From positions 1 to 37,315 of the forward strand of contig NZ_JAAHHG010000053.1 of NCBI RefSeq assembly GCF_010692555.1: 37,315 bases of DNA, in the 5' to 3' direction. Below the pieces are notes generated by a model. The model did not search any database and had not been told where the DNA came from. It saw nothing but the letters and a program-made list of their open reading frames with translations. The stretch's first letter is position 1; each line of letters starts with the position of its first letter. Made by a program: the position numbers and the translations under genes. Origin of the DNA: Okeania sp. SIO3B5 (lineage in GTDB: Bacteria > Cyanobacteriota > Cyanobacteriia > Cyanobacteriales > Microcoleaceae). This document shows positions 5,659 to 37,315 of the stretch, piece after piece.

Positions 5659-5837
5659 TAGGTATTGAAAAAGTACATGGTTTTCAGCTCTTTATGCTCA
5701 AAAAGTTAGCATTTTTAGCAAAAGTTGGGCAAAAAAATTCTCCCCTACTCCCCTACTCCCCTTTTCCCCTCTACGGTCGGGGGAGGGGCGAGGGATGGGT
5801 CCCGTACTCCTTAAAAAAGACTTTTTCAGCAAACCCT
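5659..5837 (-). mobile_element. Mini-element family A, reversed copy lacking one end
   Basis: This is the reverse complement of the element at 379-568. It runs from AGGTATTGAAAAAGTACATG to the terminal TTTTTCAGCAAACCCT. About 50 bp of the other terminus, including its inverted repeat, is absent, and the element abuts the family B fragment. The insert region differs from the other copies (GGTCGGGGGAGGGGCGAGGG). The copy is non-autonomous and no longer has two ends. Confidence 0.7.
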
Positions 5838-12693: not shown

Positions 12694-12756
12694 TTTTTGT
12701 GCTTTGTGCTACTTTTTCTGTTACAAATTGACTTGCGGAATGTGGGATTTAAAAAT

Positions 12757-14310
12757 ATGACGCTTTTTCCACCACCTGTTGTGAGTAGGATAATAATTGT
12801 TGCAGCCTTGATTTTCTTTTTCTGTAGTAGTTTACGCCACGCCTTGTTCTATTCTACTGGTTTTGACTTAGGCATTTATGACCAAGTTGCATATTTGATT
12901 AGTCAAGGAGAATCTCCTATTTCTTCTTTTTTGGGGTATCACCATCTGGGGAATCATGCTGCTTGGGCAGTCTATCCTCTAGGATTATTTTATCTGATTT
13001 ATCCTAATGTACACTGGCTACTTTTGGTACAAGCTATATGTTTGGCCTTGGGAGCTTGGCCTACTTGGTGTTTAGCCAAACAGGCGGGTTTAAATCAAGG
13101 ACAAGCAGTAGCGATCGCTATTTCTTATCTCCTTTACCCAGTAGTTTTTAATATTAATTTATTTGATTTTCACCCAGAAGTTATGGCGTTACCTGCTATT
13201 TTAGCTGCTATTTTAGCTGCTAGACTGCAACGTATTTTCTGGTTTTGTCTGGCAATTATTTGGGTGTTAGGTTGCAAGGCAGTTTTATCATTAACTGTAG
13301 TTTTTATGGGTGTTTGGTTACTAGCTTTTGAAAGGCGGAAGTTTTGTGGTTTAGTTGCTCTTTGTTTAGGTATTTTTTGGTTTGTGGTTGTCACTCAAGG
13401 AATTATTCCTTTTTTCAGTGGTGAAGAGGTAGCTGGAGTAGGACGTTATAGTTATCTGGGAGATTCTGTTGTGGGAATTATGATTAATATTTTGCTACAA
13501 CCAGGGGTAGTGTTAGGGAAGATATTATCTTTTGAGACTATTAAATATATTTGTTTGTTATTGTTACCTGTAATTTGGGGAATATTTCCTCTACTTGAGA
13601 CAAATCAAACTATTTTGCCTCATCTTATCCCTCTCATTCCAACTATTCCCACAATTGTGTTGAATGTGTTGTCTGAAGTATCGTTTCAAAGAAGTTTAAA
13701 TTATCAATATTCGTTGCCAGCGATCGGTTTTTTATTATTAGCAGTAATTTCTTGTTTAGCAGCAGCTTCAAAAGCTGAAGAAAATCACATTTCATTAGAT
13801 TCATCTTGGAAAAGAGAGTTAAAAATTCCCAAATTTAATCTGAGATTATCAGTACCAAATTTTCAAGCTCCTAAAATGATTATTTTGTGGTCTGTTTTAA
13901 TATTTTTATTGCTTGGCAATGTAGCAGATTTATTTTTATATTGGCAGAGTTTGGATACTTGGCAAGCCACAAAAAATGCAATTACTTATGTCAAAACTGA
14001 AGGAGGGGTACTCACAGATAATAGATTAGCACCTCATTTTACCCATCGTTCAACAGTAAAGTTATTGAATCAAACACAGCCAGATAATTTAGATGAATTT
14101 GATTATGTAGTTTTGAATTTACGTCATCCTTGGCCAGATACTGAGGAGGCGGGTATTATTCTGTTTAAGAGTCTTCAAAATAACCAAGAATGGAAATTAA
14201 ATTATCAGCAAAATGATGTACTGGTATTTCAAAGGGAAGAAGGAGGAAAAATTGGTAGTGGTGCAGCCGTAATTGTAGAGGAATATAGGGAGTTAGGGAC
14301 CCACCCCTAA
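12757..14310 (+). CDS. DUF2079 multi-pass membrane protein (copy 1)
   Basis: A 517-residue integral membrane protein of the DUF2079 family, distantly related to GT-C glycosyltransferases but of unproven function. Helices start at about 11-25 and recur to about 420, and a soluble C-terminal domain follows. Conserved landmarks are FDLGIYDQ (36-43, an acidic first-loop motif), HHLGNHAAW (62-70) and DFHPEVMALP (137-146). I used the ATG at 12757; an in-frame TTG at 12697 would add 20 residues but lies only 3 bases after the upstream stop and does not match the paralogue. A second copy lies at 16925-18421 and aligns over its whole length. The last residues come from a repeat (CCCACCCCTAACCCC), so the natural end may have been altered. 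Confidence 0.85.
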   Translation: MTLFPPPVVSRIIIVAALIFFFCSSLRHALFYSTGFDLGIYDQVAYLISQGESPISSFLGYHHLGNHAAWAVYPLGLFYLIYPNVHWLLLVQAICLALGAWPTWCLAKQAGLNQGQAVAIAISYLLYPVVFNINLFDFHPEVMALPAILAAILAARLQRIFWFCLAIIWVLGCKAVLSLTVVFMGVWLLAFERRKFCGLVALCLGIFWFVVVTQGIIPFFSGEEVAGVGRYSYLGDSVVGIMINILLQPGVVLGKILSFETIKYICLLLLPVIWGIFPLLETNQTILPHLIPLIPTIPTIVLNVLSEVSFQRSLNYQYSLPAIGFLLLAVISCLAAASKAEENHISLDSSWKRELKIPKFNLRLSVPNFQAPKMIILWSVLIFLLLGNVADLFLYWQSLDTWQATKNAITYVKTEGGVLTDNRLAPHFTHRSTVKLLNQTQPDNLDEFDYVVLNLRHPWPDTEEAGIILFKSLQNNQEWKLNYQQNDVLVFQREEGGKIGSGAAVIVEEYRELGTHP

Positions 14311-14416: not shown

Positions 14417-14613
14417 GCTTCCCTGCGGGATGCTACGCAAACAGGGTTCAGCTATTGCTTTTAGTTCTATATAAAAGCTTTAGTAATTGAGGCAGAATTT
14501 ATACTTACTATCAAAGTCTGCTTTAAAGTCTATATTAATTTAAACCCCCTCATAAGAGCTGAGAGCTGACAGCTAATAGCTGTTTGCGTTTGCGTAGCAT
14601 CCCGTAGGGAAGC
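14417..14613. repeat. Inverted-repeat element between the DUF2079 gene and the DNA-binding module
   Basis: The 22 bp arms at 14417-14438 and 14592-14613 are reverse complements with one mismatch; the core is GCGTAGCATCCCG. Between them is AT-rich DNA with AGCTGACAGCTAATAGCTG. The word type is common in Moorena/Okeania-like genomes. Beside it, 14613-14640 holds GCATTCCGCAGGAAATGC. No gene is present in 14327-14704. Confidence 0.6.
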
Positions 14614-14704
14614 ATTCCGCAGGAAATGCTTACAAAAATCATTACCACTCAGCAACACCTAAAAAATTACCGACCACATTGCTGTGATCGGCTCCTTTGA
14701 TTTT

Positions 14705-14953
14705 TTATTCTTCTTCGTTTGTGTCTTCTGGTAGTTTTTCGACCTGCTCCAACAGTCTAGCTATTTCTTTTTCTAGAGAAGCTGTTTTATTTAGAAATCC
14801 AGCTTTGGCTGTCTGGCTTTCTGTCAATTTTTTCTCCAAATGCTCGCTATGAGCGTTCATGTAATCTAATGCTTCTGAAACTACTTCCCGAAACAGGCCA
14901 AGGATTCCCCCAATAATCCTATAGATTGTAGTTCGTCCCACGCTTGAACCCAC
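14705..14953 (-). CDS. Coiled-coil protein overlapping a ribbon-helix-helix-like ORF (second part)
   Basis: An 82-residue frame from a GTG (14953) that overlaps the upstream ORF by 73 bp in another frame. After a short start (SSVGRTTIYRIIGGIL) it is mostly charged helix from about 35 to 75, with heptad-like spacing (LEKKLTESQ, ASLEKEIARLLEQVEKL), so a coiled coil is likely. Two readings are possible: a separate gene coupled to 14881-15081, or the C-terminal half of one DNA-binding/coiled-coil protein split by a frameshift. DNA-binding domain followed by coiled coil is a common order in plasmid and phage regulators, which makes the frameshift reading attractive but unproven. Confidence 0.5.
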   Translation of the reverse strand: MGSSVGRTTIYRIIGGILGLFREVVSEALDYMNAHSEHLEKKLTESQTAKAGFLNKTASLEKEIARLLEQVEKLPEDTNEEE

Positions 14954-15081
14954 TTCTCCAGCAGCTCGCTTTGACTGGTATTCAATGCTTCTGCTATCTC
15001 CTTCATTCTTTCCTTTGTTTTAGGAGTTACTGACAGATTTAATTTGTCTTTCCTAATTCCGTATTTCGGTTTTCCGGCCAT
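14881..15081 (-). CDS. Small ribbon-helix-helix-like DNA-binding protein (first part)
   Basis: A 66-residue frame that starts MAGKPKYGIRKDKLNLSVTP. The segment from KLNLSVTPKTKERM to ALNTSQSELLEKW has the pattern of a ribbon-helix-helix regulator: a strand with alternating residues, then two helices. The last ~20 residues (AWDELQSIGLLG...) look unlike a normal family end and overlap the next frame, which suggests a frameshift. It is divergent from the ParB-like gene at 15530. A role in autoregulation or plasmid-type control is a guess from the fold. Confidence 0.55.
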   Translation of the reverse strand: MAGKPKYGIRKDKLNLSVTPKTKERMKEIAEALNTSQSELLEKWVQAWDELQSIGLLGESLACFGK

Positions 15082-15133
15082 ATATTTTTACGTCACTCAT
15101 CTTTTGGGTACAAAAATATTTTACTTAAACCTC

Positions 15134-15164
15134 TTGACATAATCTTATACGTAATTAATAATAA
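15134..15164 (+). promoter_or_regulatory. Candidate sigma-70 promoter for the 15530 gene
   Basis: A perfect -35 box TTGACA lies at 15134-15139. AT-rich hexamers resembling TATAAT (TAATAA) occur 16 and 19 bases downstream. If real, the transcript for the gene at 15530 would have a leader of about 350 nt that includes a family P repeat. Reading frames are absent in the leader. Confidence 0.35.
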
Positions 15165-15326
15165 TATTAAGTATTTACGCCAAAGATGTTCGGGAGGTGA
15201 CACCCAACGAAGCAGTTCAAACAGTTAAAACCTAGTACTTAACTGAAATAGCCATACTTATTTTCAGTGACTATCTAATCTATATCTTTCCGGGTGAGGC
15301 TTTTGTCTACTAATTTCACCCCTTTC

Positions 15327-15473
15327 TTACCGAATAATTAAGTTTTAAAGCGTCTCCTTTATAAGGAGAAACAAGCGGTCGAGGGATGGATGGGTTTCCT
15401 AACCATATCCAATCGACCAAGAGAGAAAAAACTTTCCTTTGAGTCAATCCTCTTGTTTTGAAGGAGAGGTAAT
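15327..15473 (-). mobile_element. Two-hairpin repeat, family P, copy 2
   Basis: On the minus strand it starts AATTACCTCTCCTTC with an AAGAGGATTGA hairpin partner. It ends with TCTCCTTATAAAGGAGACGC, CTTTAAAACTTAATTATTC and GGTAA. An insert (TCGACCGCTTG and nearby) separates the two hairpins. It lies in the leader of the ParB-like gene and adjoins ATTAATTATTCATTATTAAT repeats. Confidence 0.55.
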
Positions 15474-15529
15474 TATTAATTATTCATTATTAATTGTTGA
15501 ACCCTTTTACCCCTTTTTACATCTTTCAA

Positions 15530-16423
15530 ATGTCTGGAATCTTTGACACATTAGGTTTTGCCAATTGCTTTCGCCCCGACGATCTACCTGTTTGGGGAGA
15601 ATATATTTGGTACTCTTACGAGGATCTGTTTCTCTGCAACAATGTCCCAGACCTCGAATTACAAATAGACCGTGTAGAACAAATATGGACTAAAGCTAGC
15701 TATTCTTATATACAAGAAGGTATGGCTTATAGCGTCATCAAAGTTTATAAGCTATACAAAAAATTAGGGTTTAAAGACTTCAAAGAGTACTGTCTGAAAC
15801 GAGTCAAGAAAACAACTTGGCGAGTCGAACACATTATCAAGGCAGCTCAAACAGCTTGGAATTTGATGGTTGCCGGGTTCAACGAACTTCCCAGCAATGT
15901 ATCTCAAGCCTACGCTTTATATGAACCTTTAGTGAAGAAAGGCTGTGACTATGACGTTGAAGACGCTTGGAAAAACATACTTTGTCGCAGTCAAGAAGAA
16001 AATACAGCCATTACTGCGGGATTAATAGAAGCAACTGTTAGTCCTGAGAAAAAGAGAAAAAGGTCAAAAATTAAACTGCCTGAAGAGGTGATGGCTTTAC
16101 TCAGAAAAAAGGCCGAAGAAAAAGGTCAAAACCCTGAAGATTTGGCAGCCGAAATTATCAGCGAATATTTTGCCGTAGAACAAGACTTTGAGCCAGATAC
16201 TGAAACAGTAGCCGAGCCAGAGTCTATAGACAATTTAAAAGGGTGTGTGTCAAAAACGCCTGAGATTAAAGCCTGGGAAATTGATTTACAGAATTTAGTT
16301 CAGGAAAAATATACTAATAAATCCAACTTTGAAACAACCGCAGACAGTTCCGTAATACCGGGAGGATGTCAATCAGATGGGGATATCTTCTCTGGAGGCC
16401 AAGTACGGCGACCTCCGACTTAG
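15530..16423 (+). CDS. Plasmid/phage-type DNA-binding protein, ParB-like HTH plus ribbon-helix-helix module
   Basis: A 297-residue protein with three visible parts. Residues about 58-112 (IQEGMAYSVIKVYKLYKKLG, then FKDFKEYCLKR...AAQTAWNL) and 118-170 (ELPSNVSQAYALYEPL...AWKNIL...NTAITAGLIEATV) follow the helical pattern of ParB/KorB-like DNA-binding regions, which are often seen in phage and plasmid genes. Residues 178-212 (SKIKLPEEVMALLRKKAEEK then a second helix) look like a ribbon-helix-helix. The tail after 220 is low in structure. I chose the ATG at 15530; an in-frame TTG at 15494 lies in a repeat. A partition, copy-control or regulator role is inferred from the fold only. No partner ParA is present. 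Confidence 0.6.
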   Translation: MSGIFDTLGFANCFRPDDLPVWGEYIWYSYEDLFLCNNVPDLELQIDRVEQIWTKASYSYIQEGMAYSVIKVYKLYKKLGFKDFKEYCLKRVKKTTWRVEHIIKAAQTAWNLMVAGFNELPSNVSQAYALYEPLVKKGCDYDVEDAWKNILCRSQEENTAITAGLIEATVSPEKKRKRSKIKLPEEVMALLRKKAEEKGQNPEDLAAEIISEYFAVEQDFEPDTETVAEPESIDNLKGCVSKTPEIKAWEIDLQNLVQEKYTNKSNFETTADSSVIPGGCQSDGDIFSGGQVRRPPT

Positions 16424-16431
16424 AGCTACTT

Positions 16432-16627
16432 AGGGCTTGCGCTCAAAAGTCTTTCTTCAGGAGTAGGGGAGCGGGGAAGTAGGGGAGTAGGGGAGAATTT
16501 TTTTGCCCAACTATGCGCTAAAAATGCTAACTTTTTGAGCATGAAGAGCTGAAAACCAAGGTATTACAGACCTAAAAAGGCTAAAACCTTTATTTGTAAA
16601 TGCTTTTAGATTTAATCAGCAAGCCCT
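16432..16627 (+). mobile_element. Mini-element family A, copy 3
   Basis: It begins AGGGCTTGCGCTC and ends TTTAATCAGCAAGCCCT. ACTT (TACTT if the last T is counted outside) is repeated at both edges (16427-16431 and 16627-16631), resembling a target duplication. The interior matches 379-568, including GCCCAACTATGCGC and TTTTTGAGCATGAAGAGCTG. It lies directly after the ParB-like gene. The following 16628-16924 contains only AT-rich DNA and a short TTACTTC heptamer run just before the next gene. Confidence 0.75.
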
Positions 16628-16924
16628 ACTTAGAAGCAGACTTACTTTGAATATACTTATGGACTTGGTATCAGTTATAGGGCTGTGCGCAGGCAACAGG
16701 CAATAGACAACAGCTCATCTGGGGGAATAAAAAAACGATAATATAAGACTTTTAGCTATTAGACAGTTCCTGTAATTTGTAAATATGCTAGCGTACATTA
16801 CTATGTTCAAAATTTGCTTACTTGTTTCTTCTAAATAGAAGTATAGTCAGCAAATATTACTGAATGTTGTCAAACTCAGACTCAGTTGCTAAAATTTTCT
16901 TCCTTCTTACTTCTTACTTCTAAA

Positions 16925-18421
16925 ATGCTAATTGTCAAACAACTAAAATCTGTTCCTCTCTCTACAATAACTATCATTGCTGCCATAATTTTATTTATCT
17001 GTAGCAGTGTGCGTCACTTATTATTTCAATCTAGCGCTTTTGAAATGGGAATTTATGACCAAGTTACTTATTTAATAAGTCAAGGTTTACCCCCTATTTC
17101 TTCCTTCTTAGAAGTACATCATTTAGGTAACCATGCTGCTTGGGCAATGTATCCTGTGGCATTACTTTATAAAATTTATCCTTCTGTCTATTGGTTATTA
17201 CTAATACAAGCTATTTGTTTAGCAATAGGAACAATTCCTACCTGGAGTTTAGCGCGTCATGCTGGCTTAAATAAAAAACTTGCTTTTGCTATGGCAATAG
17301 TTTATTTATCATACCCAGTAGTGTTCAATCTCAATTTATTTGATTTTCATCCAGAAGTAATGGCATTGCCAGCAATGTTAGGAGCAATTTTAGCAGCAAA
17401 ATTAGATAAAACTCTCTGGTTTTGTATAGCTATTATTTGGGTTTTAGGTTGTAAAGATGCTTTATCTTTACCTATTGCTGGAATGGGTTTTTGGTTATAT
17501 TTCTATGAAAAAAAACGATTGTGCGGAGCAATAGCTTTGTTTGCTGGTGTAGCTTGGTTTATTATTGCTACTCAAGTACTAATACCTTATTTTAAAGATG
17601 GTCAACCACCAGGAGGAATCGGACGTTATCGATATTTAGGAGGCTCTATACAAGAAATTTTACTGAATATGTTTTTAAGACCTGAACTGGTGTTTGGTAA
17701 ATTAATTTCACTGAAAACTCTAGAATATTTACTATTACTAAATCTGCCCGTAATTTGGTGGCTTGCTCCTAAATATTTAACTCCTTTAATAGCAGCTTCT
17801 CCCGTTTTGGCGATGAATATTCTCTCTAAAATTGATGCTCAAAGAGATTTAATTCATCAGTATTCTTTGCCAATATTACCTTTTTTATTAATGGCTGTAA
17901 TTTATACTATTGCTGATGGAAAATGTGGTTTATGGTATTGGCTATGGAATTTACGCAAACCTCAAACGGATAAAGCTGAAAATATATCTACAATTGTTAG
18001 CGATCGCTTACCAAAATTTATCATTATTTGGTCTTGCATCGGATTTTTAGCTTTGGCTAAATATGGGTATTTTTGGTCTATTTATTTAGATTATCTAGAT
18101 ACTTGGCAAGCAGCACGAGAAGCGGTTGCTTTAGTTGATACAAAAGGTGGTGTTTTTACTACTTCTGAAATTACGCCTCATTTAACTCATCGTCAGTTTA
18201 TTAAATTAATTGTTGAAGAAGATGAATTACCAAGAACTGAAGCATTAGTTGAATATGATTATATTTTGATAAATGTACGTCATCCAGGGTGGAAAAGTAG
18301 TCAGGAATATTCAACAAAATTAGTAGATAAACTCAAAGTTGATTCTGAATTTCAGCTTAGTTACGAACGAGATGATGTTTATTTATTTGAAAAGGGGAAA
18401 AATATTTCTCTGTTTCACTAA
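16925..18421 (+). CDS. DUF2079 multi-pass membrane protein (copy 2)
   Basis: A 498-residue paralogue of the 12757 gene, with the same order of helices and landmarks: FEMGIYDQ (39-46, Glu where copy 1 has Asp), HHLGNHAAW (65-73) and DFHPEVMALP (140-149), and the TPHLTHR segment in the C-terminal soluble part. The ATG at 16925 matches the start of copy 1; an in-frame TTG at 16886 would add residues encoded by a heptamer repeat and is less likely. The family is a predicted GT-C-like membrane protein of unknown substrate. The two copies probably arose by tandem duplication before the intervening 2.6 kb was inserted. It is convergent with the TIR-like gene. Confidence 0.85.
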   Translation: MLIVKQLKSVPLSTITIIAAIILFICSSVRHLLFQSSAFEMGIYDQVTYLISQGLPPISSFLEVHHLGNHAAWAMYPVALLYKIYPSVYWLLLIQAICLAIGTIPTWSLARHAGLNKKLAFAMAIVYLSYPVVFNLNLFDFHPEVMALPAMLGAILAAKLDKTLWFCIAIIWVLGCKDALSLPIAGMGFWLYFYEKKRLCGAIALFAGVAWFIIATQVLIPYFKDGQPPGGIGRYRYLGGSIQEILLNMFLRPELVFGKLISLKTLEYLLLLNLPVIWWLAPKYLTPLIAASPVLAMNILSKIDAQRDLIHQYSLPILPFLLMAVIYTIADGKCGLWYWLWNLRKPQTDKAENISTIVSDRLPKFIIIWSCIGFLALAKYGYFWSIYLDYLDTWQAAREAVALVDTKGGVFTTSEITPHLTHRQFIKLIVEEDELPRTEALVEYDYILINVRHPGWKSSQEYSTKLVDKLKVDSEFQLSYERDDVYLFEKGKNISLFH

Positions 18422-20112: not shown

Positions 20113-20550
20113 TTATGTCGGTACTTCTACTAATTTTGCTACTTCTTCACCAAGACATATGAAATGGTTAGGATTTAAAGTAAGTAACCGATCTACCTCT
20201 ACTTTAAAAACAACTTGAGCAATTAAACCATCGTAAATTCCACCTCCTGTTAAATTCAAATTTACCATTTTATGAATAACAGTTTGATAATCTTCCGTAG
20301 AAAGAGAAACTACTTCAAATTCTGCTAAATTTTCTCTGATTAATTGTTGTGCAAGTTTTGGGGAAACAGCAGGTTTTATAGGAAGGCGAATTAAAACGGA
20401 ATAGAGTTCTGCCAAAGTATGAGTGCAAATTATTCCTTGAATATTTCCAGATTTAACTTTTTTTAATCGTGAAAGACAAGCTGAATGTTGAGGATAATTA
20501 CTCCATAATGCAGCGACTAAAACACTTGCATCAAATAAAGCTTTTACCAC
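20113..20550 (-). CDS. vapC: PIN-domain toxin, VapC family
   Basis: A 145-residue PIN-domain ribonuclease, the toxin of a type II toxin-antitoxin pair. Acidic active-site residues visible are Asp7 (KALFDASV), Glu48 (HTLAELY) and Asp107 (GGGIYDGLIA). The usual last acidic position in the TxDxxHF motif is Asn126 (TLNPNHF), so a three-acid site is expected. It overlaps the antitoxin gene by 7 bp (20544-20550), which indicates coupled translation. The 3' end and downstream DNA (20093-20135) are repeated at 21908-21957. Confidence 0.9.
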   Translation of the reverse strand: MVKALFDASVLVAALWSNYPQHSACLSRLKKVKSGNIQGIICTHTLAELYSVLIRLPIKPAVSPKLAQQLIRENLAEFEVVSLSTEDYQTVIHKMVNLNLTGGGIYDGLIAQVVFKVEVDRLLTLNPNHFICLGEEVAKLVEVPT

Positions 20551-20801
20551 GATGTTAATTCATTAATTCTTTCTGTTCTCAGTTCATCAATAATTGTTTC
20601 TGTATTAGATATTGGTTCAGCTTTAAAGACTAATATTCCATCTTCATAGTAGGTTTCTAATTCTGGTTCTAAGAGTTGAAGAATAAGTTGATCATTCTCA
20701 ACTTTCAAGGATAACTTAGTTTGATTGTTAATTCCTAATTGTTGGCGTATTTTTTCAGGGATTTCAATACGACCAAATTGATCGATAGTGAGTTGTTCCA
20801 T
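20544..20801 (-). CDS. vapB: AbrB/MazE-type antitoxin of the VapC pair
   Basis: An 85-residue protein with a SpoVT/AbrB-type swapped-hairpin DNA-binding domain at residues 1-45 (LTIDQFGRIEIPEKIRQQLG). It continues into a C-terminal toxin-binding tail (about 50-85). It is encoded upstream of vapC and overlaps it. It should neutralise the toxin and repress its own promoter, the usual arrangement. A promoter must lie between 20802 and about 20850, but no clear boxes are visible. The symbol is by context only. Confidence 0.85.
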   Translation of the reverse strand: MEQLTIDQFGRIEIPEKIRQQLGINNQTKLSLKVENDQLILQLLEPELETYYEDGILVFKAEPISNTETIIDELRTERINELTSW

Positions 20802-31903: not shown

Positions 31904-32291
31904 GATTAAATCTCCTGAGAAAATTCATTACCTGATATTGTTTCAGCGCTCATCCGGAAATTTATGCAAAACTTTCTTGTCTCACGAGATAAATAAATGC
32001 CTGAAAAGTTGTGACAGTATAGAATAGAGAAAATAAAAATTACATAATAAATCAAATTTTGAAGAAGACAGAAGACATAATACAGAAGACAAAAGGCAGA
32101 AGAAAAAATTGCTTATCGATTCAAACCCCAAGCAATTTTAAGCATTTCCATAAGCTCCAAGAGAATTTCCTCTTTTGAAATTCAAAACAATTAAAATTAT
32201 CCCAAAAATATTCGGCGTTGCTGAATTGAAGTATGAATGTGCGATTGTTTGGCTCTGTTCAACAATGAATAATGAATAATGAATAATGAAT

Positions 32292-32389
32292 AATTACCTC
32301 TCCTTGAAAGAAGAGGATTGACTAATAATGAAAATTTTTCTTTATTATCCCCTTAAAAGGAGAGGCGCATACCCACAATTTTTCGGTAA
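32292..32389 (+). mobile_element. Two-hairpin repeat, family P, copy 3
   Basis: A 98 bp copy: AATTACCTCTCCTTGAAAG with AAGAGGATTGA (first hairpin), an AT-rich middle, CCCCTTAAAAGGAGAGGCG, then CCACAATTTTTCGGTAA. It adjoins a GAATAAT tandem run. Downstream (32390-32649) is a CCCCCAACGTTGGGGG palindrome (32404-32419) and AT-rich DNA without a gene. Confidence 0.6.
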
Positions 32390-33141: not shown

Positions 33142-33284
33142 AATTATTCAATATATATTACTTTTGTTTAACTTCTAAAGTATGAGAAATTTAACTACAT
33201 TAATATAGCAGTCGCAGAAAAGCTTAGTACAGTTCAAAAGTTTAAAACTCAGACAACTTCAAGAATTTAGAATTTAGAATTTAG

Positions 33285-33382
33285 AATTACCTTTTCTTAT
33301 AAATAAGAGGATTGAATCAAAGGATTTTTTTTTCTTCTTTCTCCATGAATGGAGAGGCTTTATACCTGAATTTTTCGGTAAT
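33285..33382 (+). mobile_element. Two-hairpin repeat, family P, copy 4
   Basis: A 98 bp copy: AATTACCTTTTCTTATAAAT with AAGAGGATTGA, then CTCCATGAATGGAGAGGC, TTTATACCTGAATTTTTC and GGTAAT. TTAGAAT heptamers lie before it (about 33263-33288). The remaining intergenic DNA (33142-33262, 33383-33592) shows no gene. Confidence 0.6.
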
Positions 33383-36121: not shown

Positions 36122-36256
36122 GTACCTCTTGCTGTTTGCGCAGCATGACAAAGGTCAAGCAAGAGGCTTAATATAAGGAATATTCTCTTCTCTTGGTCAA
36201 TCAATTCCGTTTTAAAGGAGAGTTCATTAATTGATAATTGATAATGGATAATTGAT

Positions 36257-36372
36257 AATTACCTCTGGTTAAAACCGAGAGGATTGAAGATAAGGAAATA
36301 TCCTAGCACTTTTTTTCCCTTAAAAGGGGAGGCTTTAAACCAGAATTATTTAATTATTAATGATTCGGTAAT
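36257..36372 (+). mobile_element. Two-hairpin repeat, family P, copy 5
   Basis: It starts AATTACCTCTGGTTAAAACC with GAGAGGATTGA (first hairpin) and ends TCCCTTAAAAGGGGAGGC then TTTAAACCAGAATT, ATTCGGTAAT. It is bordered by ATTGATAATGGATAATTGA repeats on the left and ATTAATTACTAATTATTAAT repeats on the right. Confidence 0.6.
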
Positions 36373-36396
36373 TATTAATTACTAATTATTAATTAT

Positions 36397-37315
36397 TTAA
36401 CTTGCTCCTAGCTGAAAATGATTGAGTAAGCTGTCAAAGTCGAACTCTTGTGCCATTAGTCTATTGACACACTCTACTTTCACAGGTTCGTTTAGACGGA
36501 CACTACCAAAAGTTCTATCTATAATTTCCACAGTAGATAAAGTATCATAGTCCACTGACAAAACAGGTACTTCCACATACTCCGCACGACGCAGCACTAA
36601 CTCATCCGGAGGCAGTTGCCCAGTTAAGATTAGACAATGGGTAGAAGTTTCTAAAGCTGCTAGTTGAATGTCTGTGCGATCGCCTCCGGTAACTACTGCC
36701 ATATTTGTAGCTTTACGGAAATATTTAATAGCTGCACTAACACTCATTGCACCAATTGTCAAGCTTTCTACCATTAAATCTAGGCGATCAGGACGACAAA
36801 GTACCTGGGCGTTTAATTGCTTCACTAATTCTGCCACTGTGACACTGCGTAAGAGACTGCTTCTCGGCAATATTCCTAATACAGGAATGTTCCTAGACTC
36901 TAGAAAAGGTTTCACTAAAGTAGTCACTGTTTCTTGTGCTGCTAGTGGTACATCATTAATAACCACACCCAACAGGGAACTACCCAAACGTTGTTTAGCT
37001 GAGAGTAAAGAGTCTATATAAGAACCTGAATTTGGACGAGTCACCAAAATTACGGCAGCATTAAGAATTTCCGCAACTTGTACTAAGGATAATTCAAATA
37101 GATTACCCTCATTTAAATTACTTGGTCCTTCTAATAAAACTAAATCTTCTCCTTCTACCTGTAGATATTGGGCTAGAGATTTTTGATAGTCAGTGTTGTC
37201 CTCTCCAAGCAAACGCTTCGTGATAGTACTTTCATCCAGCATGAACAGAGTTGGCCGAATACTATTTTCTGAAAGCTTGAGAGTTTCAGTAATAAACTGT
37301 ACATCAGCATCAATA
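36397..37315 (-). CDS. Phosphotransacetylase-like protein with DRTGG domain (5' end outside the window)
   Basis: The frame is open to the window edge. Codons before the Met at 37242 read DADVQFITETLKLSENSIRP, the expected continuation, so the gene is truncated at its 5' end. Visible parts: an AAA/BioD-like ATPase core (LVLLEGPSNL; ILVTRPNSGSYIDS; GVVINDVP) and a DRTGG domain (MAVVTGGDRTDIQLAALE). This domain order matches the N-terminal part of phosphotransacetylase and related stand-alone cyanobacterial proteins. It probably binds a nucleotide; the P-loop itself lies upstream of the window. It is preceded by repeats on its 3' side. Confidence 0.8.
   Translation of the reverse strand, partial: IDADVQFITETLKLSENSIRPTLFMLDESTITKRLLGEDNTDYQKSLAQYLQVEGEDLVLLEGPSNLNEGNLFELSLVQVAEILNAAVILVTRPNSGSYIDSLLSAKQRLGSSLLGVVINDVPLAAQETVTTLVKPFLESRNIPVLGILPRSSLLRSVTVAELVKQLNAQVLCRPDRLDLMVESLTIGAMSVSAAIKYFRKATNMAVVTGGDRTDIQLAALETSTHCLILTGQLPPDELVLRRAEYVEVPVLSVDYDTLSTVEIIDRTFGSVRLNEPVKVECVNRLMAQEFDFDSLLNHFQLGAS

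Follow-up and report, generated by a model that had tools for sequence, protein, structure and literature searches.

In insertion sequences (IS) of the IS1 and IS3 families, programmed -1 ribosomal frameshifting yields two proteins, one short and N-terminal, the other fused through the frameshift (OrfA/OrfAB). Conserved programmed frameshifts in the regulators of bacterial mobile elements are, to our knowledge, described in few cases. A regulator of the element ICEMlSymR7A, FseA (msi172/msi171), is completed by frameshifting. In the available text of PMC5009743, FseA is an activator of excision completed through a +1 shift. Here we analyse a window of 37,315 nucleotides (37 kb; coordinates given without a locus name are positions in this whole stretch) from the filamentous marine cyanobacterium Okeania sp. 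SIO3B5, and in particular a module of divergent DNA-binding genes lodged between two DUF2079-like genes. We consider it likely that this module served a cyanobacterial integrative element as its control cassette, and that its minus-strand gene, combining a ribbon-helix-helix (RHH) domain and a coiled coil, is expressed by programmed -1 ribosomal frameshifting. The likeness to IS1 and IS3 would lie in the short and fused products and in the slip kinds G_GGA_AAA/C and A_AAA_AAC, common to both; however, the fused part is here a coiled coil and not a transposase, and most copies use G_GGG_GAR, which falls outside the pattern X_XXZ_ZZN. As proposed, the gene would resemble FseA in being a mobile-element regulator completed by frameshifting, but FseA is another protein, activates excision and is shifted by +1 and not by -1. 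CopG/Arc repressors share an RHH-like domain both with the product of the two-frame gene and with the ParB-like protein encoded beside it, while the frameshifted coiled-coil extension and the divergent ParB-like partner set the present system apart from them.

The two-frame gene as a whole covers positions 15081-14705 of the minus strand. Its first frame (frame A, 15081-14881) encodes the RHH-like domain, which matches Pfam RHH_1 with E 0.0017 and 18.7 bits, below the cut-off of 20.5, and reaches its own stop after 66 amino acids (aa), 7 codons past the putative slip site TTG_GGG_GAA (G_GGG_GAA; 14905-14913, minus strand). The C-terminal coiled coil lies in the -1 frame (frame B, 14705-14908, minus strand, if entered through the -1 step), and the joined product would read ...LLGGIL... 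across the site. Frame B, which overlaps frame A in a -1 relation, is open from 15019, contains a GTG at 14953 and stops at 14705-14707; beyond it, a terminator-like hairpin, CCGATCACAGCAATGTGGTCGG, followed by a T-run, was read from the sequence at 14660-14691 (minus strand), and the nucleotide similarity shared with many other copies starts at 14657-14670, in most cases at 14662. The sequence-only reading had described here an RHH-like/coiled-coil pair of genes: both open reading frames are indeed present, but the better interpretation is a single gene divided over two frames, not separate genes. A relative in the same genome (locus L009, 5612-6004) is fused in frame, reads ..LFLGGILKQL.. 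and has seven consecutive G where the slip site would be; folded alone, it gave a low-confidence model, with a mean predicted local distance difference test (pLDDT) of 66.

We counted 46 two-frame copies (26 close, 14 more distant and 6 more) in 22 cyanobacterial genomes of 14 genera and 6 families, with the -1 step at one aligned place; 12 of the 22 genomes belong to five other families of the class. Only two-framed copies were admitted by the counting rule, so that the figure of 46 out of 46 arises by selection. The first search covered 98 genomes, the own one included, and found a match in 12, in 8 of which both parts appeared as neighbouring matches in different frames and in the -1 relation; the class searches, over 388 genomes, gave 23 and 26 genomes with a match. 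Where the host of a close copy has a name, it is Okeania (O. hirsuta, SIO2C9, SIO1I7, SIO2B3, SIO3I5) or MO_207.B10. In the 26 close copies the slip place, set with a motif pattern, is at nucleotide (nt) 168 (22 copies) or 171 (4 copies) from the start of frame A, and the joined products have 123-127 aa; in the 14 more distant ones the -1 frame stays open for 34-58 codons beyond the stop of frame A and the +1 frame for 1-24. The slip place is bounded by copies in which frame A stops directly after GGG GAA (L127) or after GGG GAA TCC (L098). It should be noted that this open-frame geometry is not decisive alone, being seen at 69 of 915 heptamer sites in 34 loci, true copies included. Two copies, L162 and L174, entered the set through a scan that required one of the heptamers, and for this reason, together with the motif pattern used on the close copies, the tally of slip sites leans towards these motifs.

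The weakest of the counted copies are L161 and L133. Among the matches left out of the count (G-numbers denote genomes, G000 being the own genome, and L-numbers denote loci) are RHH-only matches in long frames from the 98-genome search (G001:C228, G004:C28, G000:C53, G011:C410, G055, G031 and G008) and, from the class searches, loci set aside after their frames were read by eye (L125, L128-L130, L132, L135-L142, L149 and L152, and likewise L164, L165, L169-L173, L175-L178 and L180). L134 offers only an unverified candidate, A_AAA_AAG, and rows without a locus, such as G019:C1:2347937, G112:C27, G104:C7:99797 and G250:C154, are outside the count. In L010 (C78), L092 (C50) and L093 (C296), two or three two-frame regulators stand in tandem next to just one ParB-like gene.

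Substitution patterns suggest that a single frame is coding before the slip site and a single one after it. Upstream of it, the ratio of nonsynonymous to synonymous substitution rates (dN/dS, as summed ratios over 27 pairs) is 0.11 in frame A and 1.24 and 1.91 in the other frames; downstream (22 pairs) it is 0.16 in frame B and 0.91 and 1.78 in the others. Across the family the values range between 0.09 and 0.11 for frame A before the site and between 0.13 and 0.16 for frame B after it. Among the closest pairs, the three codon positions diverge by 0.037/0.029/0.199 for frame A upstream of the site (13 pairs) and by 0.061/0.033/0.141 for frame B downstream (20 pairs). That the copies are a pseudogene family, all carrying one inherited ancestral frameshift mutation, is thus hardly credible: purifying selection acts on each side in its own frame across the close family, and 14 genera retain the arrangement although their slip sites interchange, even if some Okeania copies stand in tandem arrays, the gene next to the window copy is broken, and the B part of the window copy shows only nonsynonymous changes with respect to that of the nearest relative, G003.

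The same data bear on the possibility of two separate overlapping genes, the coiled coil being translated from its own start or through re-initiation. Frame B of the window does contain the GTG at 14953, in some copies an ATG-started frame B begins even before frame A (e.g. L013 7454-7849), and a G-rich run can serve as a Shine-Dalgarno sequence for initiation in the -1 frame, as suggested for G_GGG in Escherichia coli (PMC4066793, in its available text). However, the frames other than A have a dN/dS above 1.2 upstream of the slip site, the fused relative in L009 exists, and in the copy L010_6048 a stop of frame B immediately precedes the site, so that the conserved GGIL stretch has there no usual start codon ahead. 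We regard this arrangement of two genes as very improbable.

The slip sites of the 46 copies are NNG_GGG_GAR in 34, NNG_GGA_AAA/C in 11 and CTA_AAA_AAC in 1. The amino acid encoded by the codon ahead of the slip differs among copies (L, M, S, Q, P), yet 45 of them have G as the last base of this codon and the A_AAA_AAC copy has A, a constancy that a slip site would demand. An X_XXZ_ZZN heptamer fits 12 copies, whereas the window and 33 others have G_GGG_GAR, containing only the tetramer G_GGG. The kinds G_GGA_AAA/C and A_AAA_AAC belong to the X_XXZ_ZZN class and occur in members of IS1 and IS3 (available text of PMC4066793). The same fused protein could also be obtained if RNA polymerase added one G in the run of five, and such transcriptional slippage would agree with the five-G run of 34 copies and with the seven G of the in-frame relative; a case dependent on an RNA hairpin is known from an IS of Roseiflexus (PMC5009743, in the part available). 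We judge it unlikely for this family, given that the other 12 copies have G_GGA_AAA/C or A_AAA_AAC, fitting ribosomal slippage motifs, and that the hairpin, where seen, is located 3' of the site and not 5' in the nascent RNA.

To evaluate this hairpin, 9 of the 46 copies were dropped as near-identical, and only stems starting 0-13 nt after the site and ending within 61 nt were considered. Outside the Okeania-type set there are 14 non-redundant copies, of which one, from G019, belongs to the same family; the stem has p <= 0.05 in 12 of the 14, with a Fisher p of 1.6e-13 against synonymous-codon shuffles, and the best stem begins 0-11 nt past the site (0-7 in 13 of the 14) and ends at 34-47. When a stem of 13 bp was placed on the 14 aligned sequences, from which it had itself been derived, it was 79.9% paired and 9 of the 13 pairs had changes on both sides, compared with 24-45% paired for slid versions, and its covariation score was reached by none of 500 shuffles. 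Two matches to Rfam were obtained, both under the gathering score. One selected frame per side, a conserved slip site and, in the copies outside the Okeania-type set, a covarying hairpin argue together for programmed -1 frameshifting.

Under this reading, ribosomes staying in frame would produce the short RHH protein (66 aa in the window copy), while those slipping one base back at NNG_GGG_GAR, or in other copies at G_GGA_AAA/C or A_AAA_AAC, would produce the fused RHH-coiled-coil protein (125 aa in the window copy). The RHH protein might repress the divergent promoter at repeated operators, and the coiled coil might alter oligomerisation or the binding of a partner. The frameshift would then set the ratio of the two forms which, together with the ParB-like/RHH protein, would control the element.

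The partner gene (15530-16423, plus strand), which the sequence-only reading had correctly placed on the opposite strand, encodes a protein of 297 aa with a ParB-helix-turn-helix-like region and a C-terminal Arc/CopG-like RHH; its dN/dS with respect to G003 is 0.22. The family start is the ATG at 15530; a TTG at 15494 was rejected as start because it is located in a dispersed repeat of 170 bp. The protein has one Pfam match at E <= 0.01, below cut-off, and no ParB-type domain at E <= 1; over 23 members, the weak Pfam matches that recur most often are to NikA-like (in 5 members, with a best E of 8e-5) and to VAPB_antitox (in 3). Its predicted structure has pLDDT 83-95 over residues 61-170 and a helical N terminus with no strands. 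The helical domain is similar to that of seven ParB/Spo0J/Noc/SopB entries, with VIA Z 5.0-6.5, below the level that the tool calls safe; unlike them, the window protein lacks a match to the Pfam ParB N-terminal domain and has a C-terminal RHH. This C terminus aligns to Arc with Z 4.1 and 32% identity over 41 residues. Foldseek with the model found nothing at E <= 0.001, and in the sequence search of the PDB only matches of the C-terminal RHH were of note (AvtR with E 3e-4, MazE7, Arc).

A ParB-like gene is in the locus of 24 of the 26 close copies, and is divergent in all 24. Twelve next-door copies have a gap of 238-313 nt between the two genes; the window has 449 nt, of which 170 are the inserted repeat. 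The divergent intergenic region (15082-15331, plus strand) contains a TTGACA at 15134-15139, operator-like repeats and a conserved leader, for which no conserved RNA fold worth the name was found. Over 13 such regions, the repeats around the TTGACA promoter match better within a copy than between copies (permutation p 0.0002-0.0006), which suggests candidate operators specific to each paralogue.

Fuller copies place the divergent pair inside elements, and support the earlier impression that the module's contents look like those of a mobile-element control region. In L192 (1660-9620), from the Microcoleaceae metagenome-assembled genome MO_207.B10, a tyrosine recombinase and two unknown genes precede the two-frame gene and the ParB-like gene, which are followed by five small genes and an IS110-type transposase, the two recombinases being named by likeness to others. 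A tyrosine recombinase and/or an IS110-type transposase also accompany the cassette in L008, L013, L194 and L195; by Pfam, L008, L194 and L195 have proteins of the IS110 type, that of L013 falls narrowly short of the cut-off, and Phage_integrase is supported in L013, L094 and L194. With locally built models, which include some of the proteins being counted, an IS110-type protein was found in 8 of 12 enlarged distant loci (6 of them not in the model) and a recombinase in 4 (3 not in the model). The literature searched gave no match for an element with a tyrosine recombinase and/or an IS110-type transposase around the cassette, no known element family having been tested against it.

No match was obtained by tblastn of the joined window protein against PLSDB or of the ParB-like protein against PLSDB and INPHARED, nor by two scans of viral contigs with the window queries. 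Two plasmid records matched the IS110-type protein and two a distant ParB-like protein; none matched two joined distant regulators. One plasmid region (L206; CP150887.1, 12926-32125) carries a site-specific integrase, an IS110-type protein annotated as 'transposase' and an adjoining ParM/StbA gene; the scan for slip sites gave there one A_AAA_AAC candidate, at a helix-turn-helix protein that is not a copy of the family.

Several points weigh against a frameshifted cassette gene, above all in the window. The basis is comparative sequence throughout, and the clearest hairpin and operator signals come from copies other than that of the window, besides the derivation of the 13-bp stem from the sequences on which it was scored. 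The 23 non-redundant Okeania-type copies, window included, give no hairpin signal (Fisher p 0.56 for the stem and 0.29 for the minimum free energy, MFE), in the window copy itself no hairpin is convincing (stem p 0.10; MFE p 0.63), and in an unsplit set of 31 non-redundant copies the 60 nt immediately after the site have a mean z of -0.51, hardly lower than the -0.43 obtained at a distance of 60 nt beyond. The G_GGG_GAA of the window is not an X_XXZ_ZZN heptamer, and the GTG of its frame B is upstream of the slip site; in the available text of PMC4066793, moreover, the G_GGG signal in E. coli is ascribed to Shine-Dalgarno-like initiation and not to frameshifting, and A_AAA_AAC and G_GGA_AAC are of low efficiency. 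Compared with G003, the A part of the window copy has dN 0 and dS 0.092, and in the B part all 6 differences are nonsynonymous (dN 0.039, dS 0). The window copy shows weak operator-like repeats, the ParB-like similarity is at fold level only, with three Raf1 entries ranking above (VIA Z 6.7-7.5), and a full ParB-like gene is present in just 1 of the 12 enlarged distant loci. In the window copy the frameshift mechanism could be weak or lost.

Concerning the locus itself, the DUF2079-like paralogues (12697-14310 and 16886-18421, both plus strand) have ~51% amino-acid identity, with residues 25-504 aligned, and the gap of ~2.6 kb between them holds the divergent DNA-binding genes, as had been stated from the sequence. 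Since the own genome has 10 two-frame copies over 8 contigs and 7 ParB-like matches, the arrangement of the module is not due to chance. Five congeneric genomes, the own included, hold the DUF2079 pair; the module is at the site in two (G000 and G003), and the other three have the site without it, in answer to the check proposed earlier, with 0.7-0.8 kb of unrelated spacer in G002 and G004 and 1.6 kb of other DNA in G001.

After the ParB-like gene there is a broken remnant (16311-16660, plus strand) of the gene that follows it in fuller elements: tblastn gives 57% identity over 42 aa, E 4e-10, at 16311-16430, while a possible continuation at 16628-16660 is weak alone (E 0.34). The remnant has an internal stop and is interrupted at 16434-16625 by a repeat resembling a miniature inverted-repeat transposable element, with ends GGCTTGC/GCAAGCC and 8-bp direct repeats, CTACTTAG, at 16426-16433 and 16626-16633. 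In the 37-kb window no recombinase or IS110-type protein was matched with the locally built models. Comparing G000 with G003, the synonymous divergence (dS) of the ParB-like gene is 0.048, about a third of that of the flanking genes (0.127 and 0.143). With the module in these two genomes only, the next gene broken and the ParB-like dS low, the window copy is most likely a stripped remnant of an element, exchanged more recently than its flanks and with the two regulator genes still open. In an Okeania lineage, the cassette would have stayed behind between the two DUF2079 genes, with the remainder of the element lost.

The sequence-only reading had instead considered a possible small mobile unit lacking a recognised recombinase, with inverted repeats on one side and a family A element with a target duplication on the other. 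Relatives having the site without the module, and the low dS of the ParB-like gene, which suggests later exchange, would suit an intact unit moved in trans; we see this as a minor possibility, because no boundary, end repeats or target duplication were found for the module, a search for a shared boundary gave none, and the next element gene is there only as a broken remnant. The inverted repeat is real (26 nt, 96%; arms at 14417-14442 and 14588-14613), but its second arm is within a stretch of 42 bp missing in G003, and therefore it does not delimit the module; the right-hand element with its duplication is real too, placed inside the remnant gene and not at a module edge. Both were accordingly rejected as module ends, and they look like independent repeats. 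The window copy looks like one into which repeats were inserted later, and not a self-contained mobile unit.

Other copies of the right-hand repeat are in the window at 391-569 (82%) and, partial, at 5678-5770 (91%). The 170-bp repeat (15332-15501, plus strand) is inserted in the leader of the ParB-like gene and missing at that spot in G003; it has at least 49 matches in the own genome, of which ~35 are almost complete, scoring having covered 40 of 1205 first-look candidates, and partial copies in the window near 32268-32339, 33258-33339 and 36236-36400. Farther on, at 20113-20801, there are two neighbouring minus-strand genes which by eye we take to be like a PIN-type toxin and an AbrB-type antitoxin.

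No description of the two-frame gene was found in the literature searched. PMC3711429 counts 8,425 cyanobacterial fs-genes. More tentatively, it is possible to hypothesize that cyanobacterial mobile elements of one family, with a tyrosine recombinase as well as an IS110-type transposase, are governed by an RHH regulator made in two forms through a -1 slip at the unusual site G_GGG_GAR, where only the P-site tRNA would re-pair perfectly, and that each paralogue has its own operator; in that case several elements in one cell would be controlled independently. The two-frame regulator is found in 14 cyanobacterial genera, with a slip site mostly outside the set surveyed in E. coli, and the hairpin of some lineages, none being evident in Okeania and close kin, provides a comparison made by nature for asking what role a stimulator has. 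Standard gene prediction would break up such a gene or leave it out, with the result that the regulator, and with it the elements that it would control, can be missed.

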